NCBI GenBank assembly: GCA_905373315.1
Contig: CAJPSL010000001.1
Coordinates: 1 to 17,378 of the forward strand
Reading direction: 5' to 3'
DNA length: 17,378 nucleotides
Origin: Candidatus Saccharimonadota bacterium
GTDB taxonomy: Bacteria; Patescibacteriota; Saccharimonadia; Saccharimonadales; Saccharimonadaceae
Shown: positions 2,813 through 7,300 of the stretch, piece by piece
How the letters are laid out: each line of letters opens with the position of its first letter
How positions within the stretch are numbered: the first letter of the stretch is position 1
Made by a program: the position numbers and the translations under genes
Notes under the pieces: generated by a model
Database searches by the model: none
What the model saw: the letters and a program-made list of their open reading frames with translations, nothing else
Told to the model about the DNA's origin: nothing

Positions 2813-4780
2813 ATGAGCAAGAAAACCCTGGTTGAGCTTGACCCATGGTTGGCGCCGCATGAAGGTGTCATCAATGCCCGTGAGGCGTATGTTTCGTTGA
2901 CACTTGAGAAAGCTCTGGACGGTAAATCGCCGGCAGAGTTTGCGCTAGGGTTTCATCATTTTGGCTTACATCAGACAGCGGTGGGCTGGACGTTTCGCGA
3001 ATGGGCGCCGAATGCTACGCGCATAGTAATGGTTGGCGATTTTTCTGAGTGGCAGGAGCGCGAAGAATTTGCCCTACAGCCTGGCGCACATGGTACATGG
3101 AGCGTTGATTTGCCGAAGCATGCGTTACATCATGGCCAGAACTATAAGCTGCGCGTCTATTGGCCAAATGGCGACGGCTGGCGCTTGCCGTCATACGCCA
3201 CCTACGTCATCCAAGATGATGATTCGGTGGATTTTTCGGCCGTCGTGTGGCAGCCTGATGAGCCATATCAGTGGCAGCATGACGTTCCACCTGCGCCGCA
3301 CGTGCCGTTGATTTACGAGGCGCATGTCGGCATGAGTAGTGAGGAGGAAAAGGTCGCCAGTTTCAATGAATTTACCGCAGGCGTCCTGCCACGCATCAAG
3401 CAGGCAGGATATAACACCATCCAACTGATGGCTATCGCCGAACACCCGTACTACGGCAGTTTCGGCTATCATGTTACTAATTTTTTCGCCGTGTCATCGC
3501 GGTTTGGCACGCCCGATGATTTCAAGCGGTTAGTTGACGCGGCGCACGGATTGGGGTTACGCGTTATCATTGATATCGTCCATGCTCATGCTGCCAAAAA
3601 CGAGGTCGAAGGCCTCGGCAATTTCGCGGGTGATCCAACGCAATATTTCAAAGCTCACGACCATCCAGCCTGGGATTCGCGGCTGTTTGATTATGGCAAA
3701 CCGGAGGTGCTGCACTTTTTGGCTAGTAATTGCCGCTGGTGGTTAGATGAATACCACGTTGACGGCTTTCGATTTGACGGTGTAACGAGTATGCTATATC
3801 ACGACCACGGTTTAGGAAAAAGCTTCACCAGTTATGATGATTATTTTGGCGATGACATTGACAAGGATGCGCTGGTCTATCTCAAACTGGCCAATGACGT
3901 CATTCACACTGTTCGCCCCGACGCCACGACCATTGCTGAGGAAATGAGCGGACTACCCGGACTGGCGGCGCCGACAGAACACGGCGGCCTGGGCTTTGAT
4001 TATCGATTACAGATGGGCGCGCCTGATCTCTGGATCAAGACATTGAAAGAAAAGCGCGACGAAGATTGGGATTTGGGCGAATTGGCACATACGCTGAGTT
4101 CGCACCGCCCAGAGGAAAAAGTCATCACTTACGCCGAGAGTCACGACCAAGCCTTGGTCGGCGACAAGACGTTGATTTTTCGTCTGATCGACAAAGCCAT
4201 GTACTGGCATATGGATAAAGCCGACCCCGATTTGACCGTGGAGCGTGGCGTGGCGCTGCATAAACTGGTTCGACTGCTGACCGCTGGGCTACACGGCGGC
4301 GGCTACCTGAACTTTATGGGTAATGAATTTGGGCATCCCGAGTGGATCGACTTTCCGCGTCAGGGTAATCATTGGTCATTTAAGCACGCCCGCCGTCAAT
4401 GGAGTTTACGCGACAATGGTTTTCTCAAGTACCAATGGCTGGGTGAGTTTGACGCTAGCCTGATGAAGTTCATCCAAACCATTGATGACCCTGGCGTTCA
4501 CTATCTGACCATTCGCCAGAATGACCATGTTGTCAGCTTTATGCGTGGCGACCTGCTGTTTATCGTCAACTTCTCGCCCAACCAGTCGTGGGCAGACTAT
4601 ACACTGCCGACAGCGGCTGGATCATACCGAGTAGCCCTCAGCAGCGATGACCAGCAATTTGGTGGGCACGGACGAATTCAACAAAACCAGCGGTATTTCA
4701 CCACACCGGGGCCGCATGGCGATAATGTCCAGGTATATCTACCAGCACGCAGTGGACTGGTTCTGCGCAGAATCGACTAG
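2813..4780 (+). CDS. glgB: 1,4-alpha-glucan branching enzyme, GH13_8 (eukaryote-like) type
   Basis: Makes alpha-1,6 branches in glycogen or starch-like glucans. Of 655 residues, the N-terminal ~150 form a CBM48-like beta-sandwich (FHHFGLH, WTFREWAPNA, GDFSEW). The GH13 barrel follows from EAHVGMSSEE, and a C-terminal beta domain closes the protein. Catalytic residues by motif are Asp322 (GFRFDGV, nucleophile), Glu376 (IAEEMSG, acid/base) and Asp445 (ESHDQ, stabiliser); MGNEFGHPEW is also present. The wording of these motifs (DGVTSMLYHDHG, AEEMSGLPG, AESHDQALVGDKT) matches the eukaryotic/GH13_8 group rather than the E. coli GlgB group. A start at 2729 is possible by frame, but the ATG at 2813 lies 6 nt after a TATACT box and begins the conserved region. 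No glycogen synthase, phosphorylase or debranching gene is nearby. Confidence 0.95.
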   Translation: MSKKTLVELDPWLAPHEGVINAREAYVSLTLEKALDGKSPAEFALGFHHFGLHQTAVGWTFREWAPNATRIVMVGDFSEWQEREEFALQPGAHGTWSVDLPKHALHHGQNYKLRVYWPNGDGWRLPSYATYVIQDDDSVDFSAVVWQPDEPYQWQHDVPPAPHVPLIYEAHVGMSSEEEKVASFNEFTAGVLPRIKQAGYNTIQLMAIAEHPYYGSFGYHVTNFFAVSSRFGTPDDFKRLVDAAHGLGLRVIIDIVHAHAAKNEVEGLGNFAGDPTQYFKAHDHPAWDSRLFDYGKPEVLHFLASNCRWWLDEYHVDGFRFDGVTSMLYHDHGLGKSFTSYDDYFGDDIDKDALVYLKLANDVIHTVRPDATTIAEEMSGLPGLAAPTEHGGLGFDYRLQMGAPDLWIKTLKEKRDEDWDLGELAHTLSSHRPEEKVITYAESHDQALVGDKTLIFRLIDKAMYWHMDKADPDLTVERGVALHKLVRLLTAGLHGGGYLNFMGNEFGHPEWIDFPRQGNHWSFKHARRQWSLRDNGFLKYQWLGEFDASLMKFIQTIDDPGVHYLTIRQNDHVVSFMRGDLLFIVNFSPNQSWADYTLPTAAGSYRVALSSDDQQFGGHGRIQQNQRYFTTPGPHGDNVQVYLPARSGLVLRRID

Positions 4781-4814
4781 GGTTTGACGGTTTGTTTGAG
4801 CATAAGCGGTATAC

Positions 4815-4843
4815 TTGACTTTTTTACTGTAGTATGATATCAT
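4815..4843 (+). promoter_or_regulatory. Promoter of hairpin-rich unit 1
   Basis: -35 TTGACT (4815-4820), 17-nt spacer, -10 TATCAT (4838-4843), with a start expected near 4850. The -35 is followed by a T-run, just as in the promoter of unit 2 (TTGACTTTTT in both). Confidence 0.75.
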
Positions 4844-4936
4844 ATAAGTAGCTTTTCATTCGCCCTGAGGCGTTTGAAAAGAGCACTTGCCCATCCATCT
4901 ATCCATCTTTTTCCTATATGAGAGGAGGTGAAAAAG

Positions 4937-5257
4937 ATGTGGTTCCTCACTGGGTTCATCGGAACTCCTGTCGTGGTTGGAATCATCAACGCTCTGTTGA
5001 CGGCGTTGATGTCAGTAGCAAGCACCAGGCACTCGCGCCGTAAGCTTCTATTGGGTGCCAAAGAACATCTAGTTTTCTTTGGCGTGTTGGGGGTCGGTCT
5101 ATACATCGGTCTCAACCTTGATACAGGCCACTTGGGAAATAATGTCCCGAGTGGCATATGGTGTGCCATACTGATAGAGGTATGGCACCAGATGCCTCGC
5201 TGGGCGAATCTAAACAAGCCAGACTCGCCCAGCGATAACCCTAGGCTTCAACTCTAG
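4937..5257 (+). CDS. Small multi-pass membrane protein in hairpin-rich unit 1
   Basis: 106 residues, not recognised. Hydropathy by eye: TM1 about residues 3-25 (FLTGFIGTPVVVGIINALLTALM), a basic loop RHSRRKLLLGAKEH, TM2 about 47-62 (LVFFGVLGVGLYIGLNL), a third hydrophobic stretch around PSGIWCAILIEVW, and a polar tail. The topology with a basic cytoplasmic loop is believable for a real protein. I chose the ATG at 4937, 8 nt after AGGAGG (4923-4928), over the GTG at 4928 that overlaps the Shine-Dalgarno. The stop codon falls inside a hairpin (5241-5262). Size and layout recall holins or toxin-like membrane peptides, but there is no sequence match I can name. The frame may be under double selection for protein and RNA structure. 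A purely RNA function with a chance frame cannot be excluded. Confidence 0.6.
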   Translation: MWFLTGFIGTPVVVGIINALLTALMSVASTRHSRRKLLLGAKEHLVFFGVLGVGLYIGLNLDTGHLGNNVPSGIWCAILIEVWHQMPRWANLNKPDSPSDNPRLQL

Positions 5258-5281
5258 CCTGGAACATGGGCAAGTAACCTT

Positions 5282-5391
5282 GCCCACCGGAAAATAGTTC
5301 GCCGAATCGGCTCAACCTGATTGAGTGCCTCATGGCATTCTCGGGTTGACCAAACCCGATTCAGCTTGAGCCAGTTCGGTGGGCTATTTTC
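5282..5391 (+). terminator. Branched 3' structure of unit 1, probable terminator
   Basis: The outer stem GCCCACCG (5282-5289) with CGGTGGGC (5377-5384) is followed by TATTTTC. Inside, GGCTCAA (5309-5315) pairs with TTGAGCC (5366-5372). That stem encloses two adjacent 7-bp hairpins, 5323-5329/5334-5340 (TCAT loop) and 5341-5347/5353-5359 (GACCA loop), which makes a three-way junction. GAAAATAG (5290-5297) is also perfectly complementary to CTATTTTC (5384-5391), in a crossed order with the outer stem. Confidence 0.6.
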
Positions 5392-5397
5392 ATGTCA

Positions 5398-5425
5398 TTG
5401 ACTTTTTGTAAATATGTGCTATATT
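5398..5425 (+). promoter_or_regulatory. Promoter of hairpin-rich unit 2
   Basis: -35 TTGACT (5398-5403), followed after 16 nt by -10 TATATT (5420-5425). An 18-nt spacer with TATTAT (5422-5427) is also possible. It begins directly after the 3' structure of unit 1. Confidence 0.75.
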
Positions 5426-5551
5426 ATGAATTAGCCTGTTCAGTGCCTCTCATGAGGTCACTGACCGTGCTTCGCCACCAAGCCAGATGCTTGGTGGCTT
5501 GAGGCGCGGAAAGGCCGCACCTCACATTTCTTCCGAGAGGAGGTGGGCATG

Positions 5552-5764
5552 ATGCCCATCTGGAAGGTACAGAGAAGCGCGGTGACCGTACTGGTCATCG
5601 CGCTTGGTATCTCCGCAATCGCGGGGATGGCAATTGAGCTTAACCAGGACGTTCCGTCCTGGTTGTACTACCCCACTACAGGGATGGTGTGCCTCATGGC
5701 GATCGGGGCCGCACTCGCGGTCCTGGTCGCCACCCTCCTCATCAAAGATGAGGAGGAAGAATAA
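5552..5764 (+). CDS. Small two-pass membrane protein in hairpin-rich unit 2
   Basis: 70 residues, not recognised. The basic N-terminus MPIWKVQR leads into TM1 (SAVTVLVIALGISAIAGMAIEL). A short loop NQDVPSWLYYP follows, then TM2 (GMVCLMAIGAALAVLVATLLI) and an acidic tail KDEEEE. Two ATGs (5549, 5552) follow AGGAGG (5538-5543). The second has the same 8-nt spacing as unit 1 and is taken as the start. The third position of codons is richer in G/C than in flanking genes, as expected if codons are chosen to form the stems. Both ATGs and half of the Shine-Dalgarno lie in a 9-bp hairpin, so translation may need structural rearrangement. The size and two-helix form recall small holins or type I toxins, but this is only resemblance. 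Confidence 0.65.
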   Translation: MPIWKVQRSAVTVLVIALGISAIAGMAIELNQDVPSWLYYPTTGMVCLMAIGAALAVLVATLLIKDEEEE

Positions 5765-5832
5765 GGTGCAGGCGCGCCAGCAGAGGCGCGCATGATTAGA
5801 AAAATGTCTGTGAAACCGCGGAAACTCCGCGT

Positions 5833-5857
5833 CCCCACGCACGTCGTGGGGTTTTTC
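5833..5857 (+). terminator. Terminator of unit 2
   Basis: CCCCACG (5833-5839), loop CACGT, CGTGGGG (5845-5851), then TTTTTCTT. This is a classical intrinsic terminator. The promoter of the next gene begins within its T-run. Confidence 0.85.
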
Positions 5858-5888
5858 TTGGCAAAAATTTGGTAAAGTTTGATACACT
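5858..5888 (+). promoter_or_regulatory. Promoter of the ThrE-like gene
   Basis: -35 TTGGCA (5858-5863), with the -10 as GATACA (5881-5886, 17-nt spacer) or TACACT (5883-5888). The ATG is at 5897, so the message would be leaderless or nearly so. No Shine-Dalgarno is present. Confidence 0.55.
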
Positions 5889-5896
5889 AATTATTG

Positions 5897-7300
5897 ATGA
5901 ACAAGATCAATAAAAAAGTACCAGAAATCTTACTACAGTCACTCGGCAAAATTGCTCGCCTTCCCTTGCCAATTCCTGCCCAAGTGATCGAAAAAATTGA
6001 CGAAAGCTTAACCCCAAACATGCGCGCTTTGCGGTTAGTTCTGACCATTTCCGAAAAGCTCCTCAGCATGGGCGTGTCGGCGCGAGACGTGGTGCATATG
6101 ATGCTTGGTATCACCAGAACTTACTGTAAACAGCCAGTTCACATGGACATCAGCTCAACGCTCATCACCGTGTCGCAAGACCGCGGCATCAACCGCGAAC
6201 CACTGACCTTGATTCGAGCCATCACCTTGGTGGATGTCAATTACCAAACCATCCAAGCATTGCAGGCATTGTCCCGAGGGATCCGCTACCAACACATTCA
6301 CTTGAGTGAGGCCGAGGAACGGCTAGAAAAGATCATCAATCCTGAAAAACGCCATCCCCAATCTCTCGTCGCCCTGTCAGGCGGCGCGTTGAGTGCTGGT
6401 GTGGTGGTGATGTATGGCGGTAGTTTACAGATGGCACTCCTGGCTATGGCGGTCGGCACACTCAGCACGGTTGCCATGCGTCTGTTGTGGCGTGTCGGTG
6501 TGTCGGTATTTTTCACACAGATCATCATGTCGCTCTGTATCACACTCATCGCCACCGCTGTTGTCTGCGTCAATACCAAGTTTAATTTGGCATTCAATCC
6601 GACACTGATTGTGATCGGTGGAATCGTCCTATTGGTGGCAGGCATGATGATCGTTGGTGCGTTTCAGGATGCAATTGATGAATATTACGTCACGGCAAAT
6701 GCCCGGCTGCTGCGAGTGCTGATGGCAACCAGTGGTATCGTGGTTGGCGTGGCTATTGGCCTTCATATTGCCACCAGATTGGGTATTAGTTTTCCAACCA
6801 CCCCAGACCGTTTGACGTTGGTGGATAATTATACGCAGTACATCGGTGCGGCAGTCATCGCTGCAGCATTCGTCATTGGCAATCACGCGCCGTTCTTTGG
6901 CACCATTCTGGCCGGTCTTGTGGGAGCTAGCGGTTGGGGGCTATTTCAGCTGTTGACCGACGCCGGCTGGGATGTATTACTAGCGAGCGGTGCAGCAGCT
7001 GCAGCCATCGGTTTGGTGGCAACCTTCATGTCCCGACTGTGGCGTATCCCGTCTTTGGCTATCATCGGCGCGGGTATCGTGCCGCTGGTGCCAGGTTTGT
7101 CGTTGTACAATGGCTTGATGGGTATCATCAGTCAGGCGCCATCAGACCCAGGCTACGTTGTCGCTTTGGCAAGTCTGGCGCGAGCCGTCATGATTGGGTT
7201 TGCTGTTGCTGTAGGTGCGTCATTTGGCAATGCCATTGGTCGTCCAATTCGCAGTCAAATCAGGAAGCTTTTTGTTGGGATACCGACGACTGCAGAGTAG
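5897..7300 (+). CDS. Threonine/serine exporter family protein (ThrE-like)
   Basis: 467 residues, close to the usual length of single-chain ThrE proteins (~490). The soluble N-terminal ~150 residues match the domain that precedes the membrane part in this family. After a polar linker (EKIINPEKRHPQ) come about ten hydrophobic segments. The signature near the C-terminus, RIPSLAIIGAGIVPLVPGLSLYNGL, is the typical PLVPG loop of the second half. The family exports threonine and serine in Corynebacterium glutamicum. In a host-dependent, amino-acid-poor organism the substrate and direction are uncertain. The ATG at 5897 is preferred to the in-frame TTG at 5894. The gene is convergent with the DUF998 gene, and the two overlap by 41 bp. 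It is not evidently co-transcribed with the small units upstream, because a terminator separates them. Confidence 0.88.
   Translation: MNKINKKVPEILLQSLGKIARLPLPIPAQVIEKIDESLTPNMRALRLVLTISEKLLSMGVSARDVVHMMLGITRTYCKQPVHMDISSTLITVSQDRGINREPLTLIRAITLVDVNYQTIQALQALSRGIRYQHIHLSEAEERLEKIINPEKRHPQSLVALSGGALSAGVVVMYGGSLQMALLAMAVGTLSTVAMRLLWRVGVSVFFTQIIMSLCITLIATAVVCVNTKFNLAFNPTLIVIGGIVLLVAGMMIVGAFQDAIDEYYVTANARLLRVLMATSGIVVGVAIGLHIATRLGISFPTTPDRLTLVDNYTQYIGAAVIAAAFVIGNHAPFFGTILAGLVGASGWGLFQLLTDAGWDVLLASGAAAAAIGLVATFMSRLWRIPSLAIIGAGIVPLVPGLSLYNGLMGIISQAPSDPGYVVALASLARAVMIGFAVAVGASFGNAIGRPIRSQIRKLFVGIPTTAE

Follow-up and report, generated by a model that had tools for sequence, protein, structure and literature searches.

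Sequence comparison places unit 2, a hairpin-dense stretch at positions 5432–5858 of the window (the whole 17,378-nt stretch of DNA analysed), in a family in Saccharibacteria whose members have an ORF for a short protein set between a conserved leader and a conserved trailer, with a promoter-like site in front and a terminator at the end (Table 1). In all six members, as judged by codon shuffling, the choice among synonymous codons gives the coding part a fold well beyond what chance would produce, and the conserved frame carries proteins that vary from genome to genome and, read by eye and from one structural model, are probably exported or in the membrane. We lean, if modestly, towards the view that unit 2 is a self-contained, structure-armoured mRNA cassette for variable envelope proteins that is probably long-lived; its stability, gating and expression are properties that we infer.

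Table 1. Features of unit 2, with the neighbouring unit 1 (positions in the window).
Feature	Position	Strand	Remarks
Unit 1	4815–5391	+	promoter-like site 4815–4843, 106-aa ORF 4937–5257, end hairpin 5290–5391
Promoter-like site of unit 2	5398–5425	+	TTGACT, 16-nt spacer, TATATT
-35 box form			TTGACTTTTT in the window, G006, G001 and G007; TTGACAT in G009 and G003
Leader hairpin H1	5440–5464	+	hairpin at the same place in the five members examined; sequences differ
Leader hairpin H2	5465–5509	+	outer CCGTGCTTC/GAGGCGCGG, inner stem 5474–5498
Leader core	5501–5523	+	GAGGCGCGG-AAAGG-CCGCACCTC
Long-range helix, 5' arm	5517–5522	+	paired with 5764–5769 in the MFE fold
Shine-Dalgarno (SD) AGGAGG	5538–5543	+	read from the sequence; overlaps the start hairpin
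Start-codon hairpin	5541–5561	+	9 bp, AUG at the apex
71-aa ORF, predicted two-helix membrane protein	5549–5764	+	hairpins 5575–5605, 5608–5629, 5641–5665, 5697–5732, 5734–5756
Long-range helix, 3' arm	5764–5769	+	at the stop codon
Trailer hairpin with GCGCCAGCAGA-GGCGC	5772–5791	+	motif in 5 of 9 genus genomes, none reversed
Trailer hairpin beta	5817–5831	+
Intrinsic terminator	5833–5857	+

Results

Fold of unit 2

The preliminary description of this DNA had reported a chain of twelve stems in about 430 nt and proposed folding and shuffle tests, and these confirm the observation: the sense strand of unit 2 (427 nt) has a minimum free energy (MFE) of -240.7 kcal/mol (z -14.3), and none of 100 shuffles is equally stable. 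For comparison, 37 windows of 427 nt taken from other parts of the window average -126, and the most stable of them reaches -176.5. The complementary minus strand also folds well (z -10.4). A strand-symmetric finder returned 12 hairpins with at least six Watson-Crick pairs, the same number as the stems first counted, and the four stems that had been singled out (13 bp at 5575–5605, 16 bp at 5697–5732, 10 bp with an AAA loop at 5734–5756, and 10 bp at 5474–5498) are all present in the MFE fold. The further statement that nearly every base from 5440 to 5851 lies in a stem or a short loop was too strong: the MFE fold pairs 72.6% of these bases, compared with a mean of 60% and a maximum of 71% in the 37 background windows. 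No Rfam family matches the window at its gathering score, and the best permissive match in 4780–5900 (E 0.74) falls far below it.

Codon choice in the coding sequence

When synonymous codons were permuted inside the ORF, such that both the protein and its codon usage were kept, the 71-aa ORF gave z values of -8.1 and -7.0 (0 of 200 permutations as stable in either run), and -6.3 and -8.1 in smaller runs of 40. Unit 1 aside (z -4.2), the other genes of the window range from +1.1 to -2.4, with rpsG the lowest and thrE averaging -0.1; random 213-nt segments of ORFs from G006, another genome of the genus, have a mean of -0.5 (n = 110, sd 1.4), and the single segment below -3 comes from a band-7 gene. 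Near-perfect local hairpins cover 48.8% of the bases of the 71-aa ORF, the highest share among 1,761 ORFs with a minimum length of 60 aa (19 from the window, 678 from G006, 837 from G009 and 227 from part of G001), the next being 27%. Group means are 3.8–4.0%, and 6.7% for the window including unit 2. The ORF picker for this measure takes the longest frame, so that some structured genes entered as an antisense frame; the hairpin share of the G006 relative is 41.6% when its coding frame is used. Third codon positions are indeed rich in G/C, as had been noted at the outset: GC3 is 0.75, against 0.41–0.63 in 14 other ORFs of the window (thrE excluded). The antisense z was dropped as a test of strand, both strands of MS2 giving similar values.

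The encoded protein

AlphaFold predicts two long helices for the encoded protein (pLDDT 83), in keeping with the two-helix membrane protein first described; its length is 71 aa rather than the 70 then given. An initial search returned ten near full-length homologs and one fragment, and a profile search 32 matches, 27 of which were aligned with the window and G006 (locus L005) sequences: length is nearly constant and the changes are conservative by eye. No family passes the cut-off (the Pfam LapA domain has E 0.003), and among PHROGs there is a weak match to a holin-named family (E 0.046). Two homologs, P0031 and P0036, bear an N-terminal extension, LRRGKAAPH, that corresponds, at the protein level only, to the leader core read in one frame. 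With the protein queries A1 and A3, neither genome_contigs nor viral_contigs gave a relative. Searches with A1 (in 9 and 394 genomes), A3 (392) and A4 (392), in sets that overlap and are not distinct, returned G006 and four weak matches. Candidate L027 was dropped because its match lies inside a 520-aa frame, L112 because it lies inside a 407-aa frame, and L028 and L029 because, by eye, no hairpin-dense stretch accompanies the match.

A conserved frame with changing cargo

The distant homolog of the 71-aa protein in G006 lies beside gapA. The core pattern that it shares with the window is matched in 3 of 394 genomes of the taxonomic family (G001, G006 and G007) and the reversed pattern in none; the leader core is found in diverged form in G009 and G003. 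The trailer motif, always as a single copy, is present in G001, G003, G006, G007 and G009 and absent from G002, G004, G005 and G008. By homology, leader core or trailer motif, we found five relatives that have leader, trailer and terminator in common with unit 2. All five are near gapA, with rpiB on the opposite side in the four for which there is enough contig; in G001, a 187-aa ORF separates the unit from gapA. Unit 2 itself sits between unit 1 and thrE, and by eye glgB is closely followed by thrE, with no unit, in G001 (L001) and G002 (L002). Six viral contigs (L119–L124), alike in sequence, match the core pattern and lack the trailer motif.

The proteins encoded within this frame differ. 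Those of the window (71 aa), G006 (77 aa) and G007 (106 aa) are hydrophobic by eye, as are those of G001 (about 114 aa; an uncertain start allows 114 or 117) and G003 (127 aa), which are 30% identical to each other (E 7e-8); the 116-aa protein of G009 contains a lipobox-like LTGC. Inspection, together with one model, suggests that the frame encodes membrane proteins and, in one genome, a lipoprotein. In most pairs of members, leader and trailer are more similar than the ORF. Between G009 and G003, identity is 94% in the leader, 86% in the trailer, 57% in the CDS (51% for shuffled CDS) and 81% in the 150 nt that precede the leader, and the proteins do not match at E 1. Between G001 and G007, the corresponding values are 81%, 71% and 53% (shuffled, 51%), and the proteins match only at E 0.14 and above. 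Kinship of leaders and kinship of proteins therefore disagree, and coding parts have thus been exchanged or replaced within a conserved frame.

The relatives' coding parts are structured in their turn, with codon-shuffle z values of -5.0 (G001), -4.4 (G007, computed with the ORF taken one codon too early) and -3.4 (G009), 0 of 200 permutations being as stable in each, and of -3.1 in both G006 and G003 (1 of 200 each). Neighbouring genes, used as controls, are unstructured by this measure (rpiB, +0.4; three gapA genes, +0.2 to -0.2). Folded as whole units, G001, G007, G006 and G009 give z values of -9.5, -7.8, -7.7 and -5.2, respectively. The G009 unit was not flagged by a 300-nt genome scan of G009 and parts of G001–G004, in which few regions were flagged.

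Covariation and alternative pairings

Covariation was read by hand in stem arms chosen by the analyst, with G003 left out and with two arms shared between G001 and G007. Both sides of the pair change in 6 of 6 pairs of H1 (five members), 5 of 6 of H2b (three members), 5 of 5 of the start hairpin (four members, one with a mismatch), 6 of 7 of the last ORF hairpin (four members) and, in five members, 2 of 6 of hairpin beta and 3 of 10 of the terminator; H2a, the core and the trailer hairpin are nearly invariant. In the three members compared, the inner stem of H2 in the window differs on both sides from that of G001 and G007. Automatic alignments yielded both-side changes in 3 of 25 trailer pairs (six members) and 8 of 37 leader pairs (three members), with RNAalifold covariation terms of +1.06 and +0.46; a two-sequence alignment of the window with L005 was poor and was discarded. 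The covariation check proposed in the preliminary description thus gives a divided answer, with both-side changes in several stems and unfavourable net RNAalifold terms, and we take it as support for paired structure that falls short of proof. The double use of sequence for protein and for structure, also put forward there, is backed by the codon shuffles, by five relatives with different and again structured coding parts, by this partial covariation, and by the same elements bracketing an ORF in six of six members.

Another observation concerns the leader core, which may fold on itself (H3) or have its halves paired into H2 and the long-range helix. Its two halves can pair with each other, or the 3' half can, as GCACCTC, join the stop-codon element and so close a domain that holds the CDS; the stop codon overlaps this element, or precedes it by at most 9 nt, in all six members. 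Forcing either state costs 0 to 6.8 of 206–293 kcal/mol across the six; the MFE fold contains H3 in three, the long-range helix in two and neither in G007, and three of the six have a single mismatch in the helix. A hairpin at the start position is present in four members, and G009 has none there. The ribosome site of unit 2 shows ordinary accessibility (0.43 at the SD and 0.67 at the start, compared with means of 0.47 and 0.42 for 480 G006 genes); what is strong is the local fold, at -18.7 against a 5th percentile of -13.9. Of the others, only the G006 adhesin has a clearly shut SD (0.02). We tested whether the ribosome-binding site is generally sequestered and abandoned the idea, accessibility being mostly ordinary.

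Unit 1 and other structured genes

Unit 1 resembles unit 2 in design, with a different leader and trailer that contain neither the leader core nor the trailer motif. It has a 10-bp long-range helix (4885–4894 with 5266–5275), a fold z of -10.0 over 4850–5400 (the minus strand is stronger, at -11.1) and a codon z of -4.2. Its end is an 18+7-bp hairpin with two nested hairpins, not a plain terminator. A model of the 106-aa protein was set aside (pLDDT 57).

Apart from L005, the most strongly structured regions across nearly all of G006 are a lipoprotein-like gene, an Ig-domain gene and an RNA beside dus. Codon z is -12.6 for the 396-aa lipoprotein-like gene (L010:17400–19020), in which 651 nt have a fold z of -18.7 (20 shuffles) and the 3' end looks pseudoknotted by eye, and -14.9 for the Ig-domain surface protein gene (L031:2495–4650; Big_8, E 4e-11), with a fold z of -15.9 over 706 nt (20 shuffles). 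By eye, the 5' and 3' UTRs of this adhesin gene share a 13-base complementarity (L031, 2601–2613 with 4599–4611). A weaker case is a band-7 gene (L033:60–1300; mean tile z -2.2), which has codon-selected structure over part of its length and a promoter-like site of the TTGACTTTTT form. In the hairpin measure, z 4 is passed by 4 of 661 ORFs in G006, by 4 of 801 in G009 and by none of the 221 from part of G001. As a GatC-like ORF (G006) and an aminotransferase-like ORF (G009) are among them, the trait extends beyond envelope genes. The structured RNAs beside dus, on the minus strand in G006 (L031:19000–20000) and G009 (L082:14200–14750), appear by eye to have in common a pseudoknot-like element and a motif resembling the T arm of tRNA. 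ARAGORN reports no tmRNA in the scanned stretches of these two genomes, and Rfam finds in the G006 RNA only a 17-nt piece of tmRNA (E 3e-4); perhaps these RNAs are divergent ssrA.

Discussion

We propose that the hairpin chain would protect the message of abundant envelope proteins from RNases and make it long-lived, RNase resistance being the simplest use for hairpins throughout a message. In favour of this reading, lipoprotein-like, Ig-domain surface and band-7 genes are among those of G006 with strong codon-selected structure. The leader core may act as a switch, given that its 3' half has two possible partners, the 5' half and the stop-codon element, and that several start codons lie in a hairpin; bearing in mind that ribosome sites are mostly of ordinary accessibility, we offer gating just as a hypothesis. 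A cassette of this kind would let the cell swap an exposed protein while keeping the stability and control of its message.

Other readings were weighed against this one. Good folding on both strands, stems that are mostly Watson-Crick and the replacement of coding parts, which suggests recombination, would suit an origin at the DNA level, with the inverted repeats acting as cruciforms or recombination sites or arising from template switching. That origin is unlikely, for GU pairs outnumber AC mismatches by 43 to 30 in the stems, as they do in MS2 (28:22), and stand at 35 to 58 over the remainder of the window (Fisher p 0.008, against a background that ignores gene direction; tested against 1:1, p is only 0.08). 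We think it quite unlikely that unit 2 is a type I toxin-like mRNA of the hok kind, that is, a stable, structured message for a small hydrophobic protein in which 5'–3' pairing holds translation until processing. The predicted two-helix small protein, the weak holin-named match, the start hairpin and the 5'–3' pairing are what such a message would have; however, a search for sigma-70-like promoter sites found none on the minus strand in 4700–6000, the weak matches include no toxin family, the same frame holds a 116-aa lipoprotein-like protein, and the genus also has large structured surface genes.

Were the RNA itself the selected product, a large ornate RNA with the ORF as a secondary passenger, one might expect the structure throughout and the leaders and trailers that are more alike than ORFs in most pairs. 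Yet by eye all six members keep an open ORF that starts after the leader core and stops at the trailer, and the 27 aligned protein homologs vary little in length and, by eye, conservatively, which makes this reading very improbable. Least probable of all is a mobile element or RNA replicon with a small gene of its own: units do occupy two chromosomal sites (the gap between unit 1 and thrE in the window, the gapA side in five genomes), and G001 and G002 have glgB and thrE close together with no unit, but the searches made returned no viral, phage or plasmid relative, each genome has one copy of the trailer motif, and by eye the ORF list holds no recognisable mobility gene.

The cassette reading also differs from known systems. 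The E. coli lpp mRNA is short, stable and rich in hairpins and encodes an abundant envelope lipoprotein; as is predicted for unit 2, it joins a short message and an envelope protein to stem-loops throughout (transcript z -4.9; hairpin share 16%), but its codon-shuffle z is only -0.9 (ompA gives -0.7, with a hairpin share of 6%), and we know of no conserved frame with an exchangeable ORF for lpp. RNA viruses have ordered RNA structure on the scale of the genome and, with MS2 as yardstick, coding sequence selected for base pairing (codon z -1.4 to -3.6), as in unit 2; the structure of MS2 genes is weaker, with MFE per nucleotide of -0.29 to -0.36 against -0.57 and hairpin shares of 3–10% against 49%. 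Numerically, then, the likeness to RNA phages drawn in the preliminary description is borne out and even surpassed, but no significant phage, plasmid or viral-contig relative accompanies it (for Leviviricetes-type relatives, the best phage match has E 0.3 and no relative turned up among viral contigs), and the natural relatives speak against the designed fold that it had also evoked. The hok-type toxin mRNAs share with unit 2 a small membrane protein (predicted in unit 2), a leader with alternative pairings and 5'–3' pairing; unit 2 departs from them in having no antisense promoter that we could see, structure across the whole coding part and varied cargo. OLE, ROOL and GOLLD are likewise long and elaborately structured, whereas unit 2 carries an ORF and matches nothing in Rfam at gathering score.

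The literature searches made turned up nothing on such messages in Saccharibacteria. A bolder extension, which we hold only tentatively and think rather doubtful, is that these are exchangeable cassettes in which a conserved bistable frame takes varied envelope genes re-encoded as hairpin chains, the message being a shaped, lasting object that may be stored or positioned, and the frame a recombination site for surface variation.

If the cassette reading is true, unit 2 would represent a message of a cell that is more heavily base-paired than the measured MS2 genes and in which both codes are under selection at once, and its family would be one in which unrelated proteins are re-encoded to suit a single RNA design. 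Questions of mRNA lifetime, structure and translation would thereby become directly testable in bacteria whose surface proteins are poorly understood.
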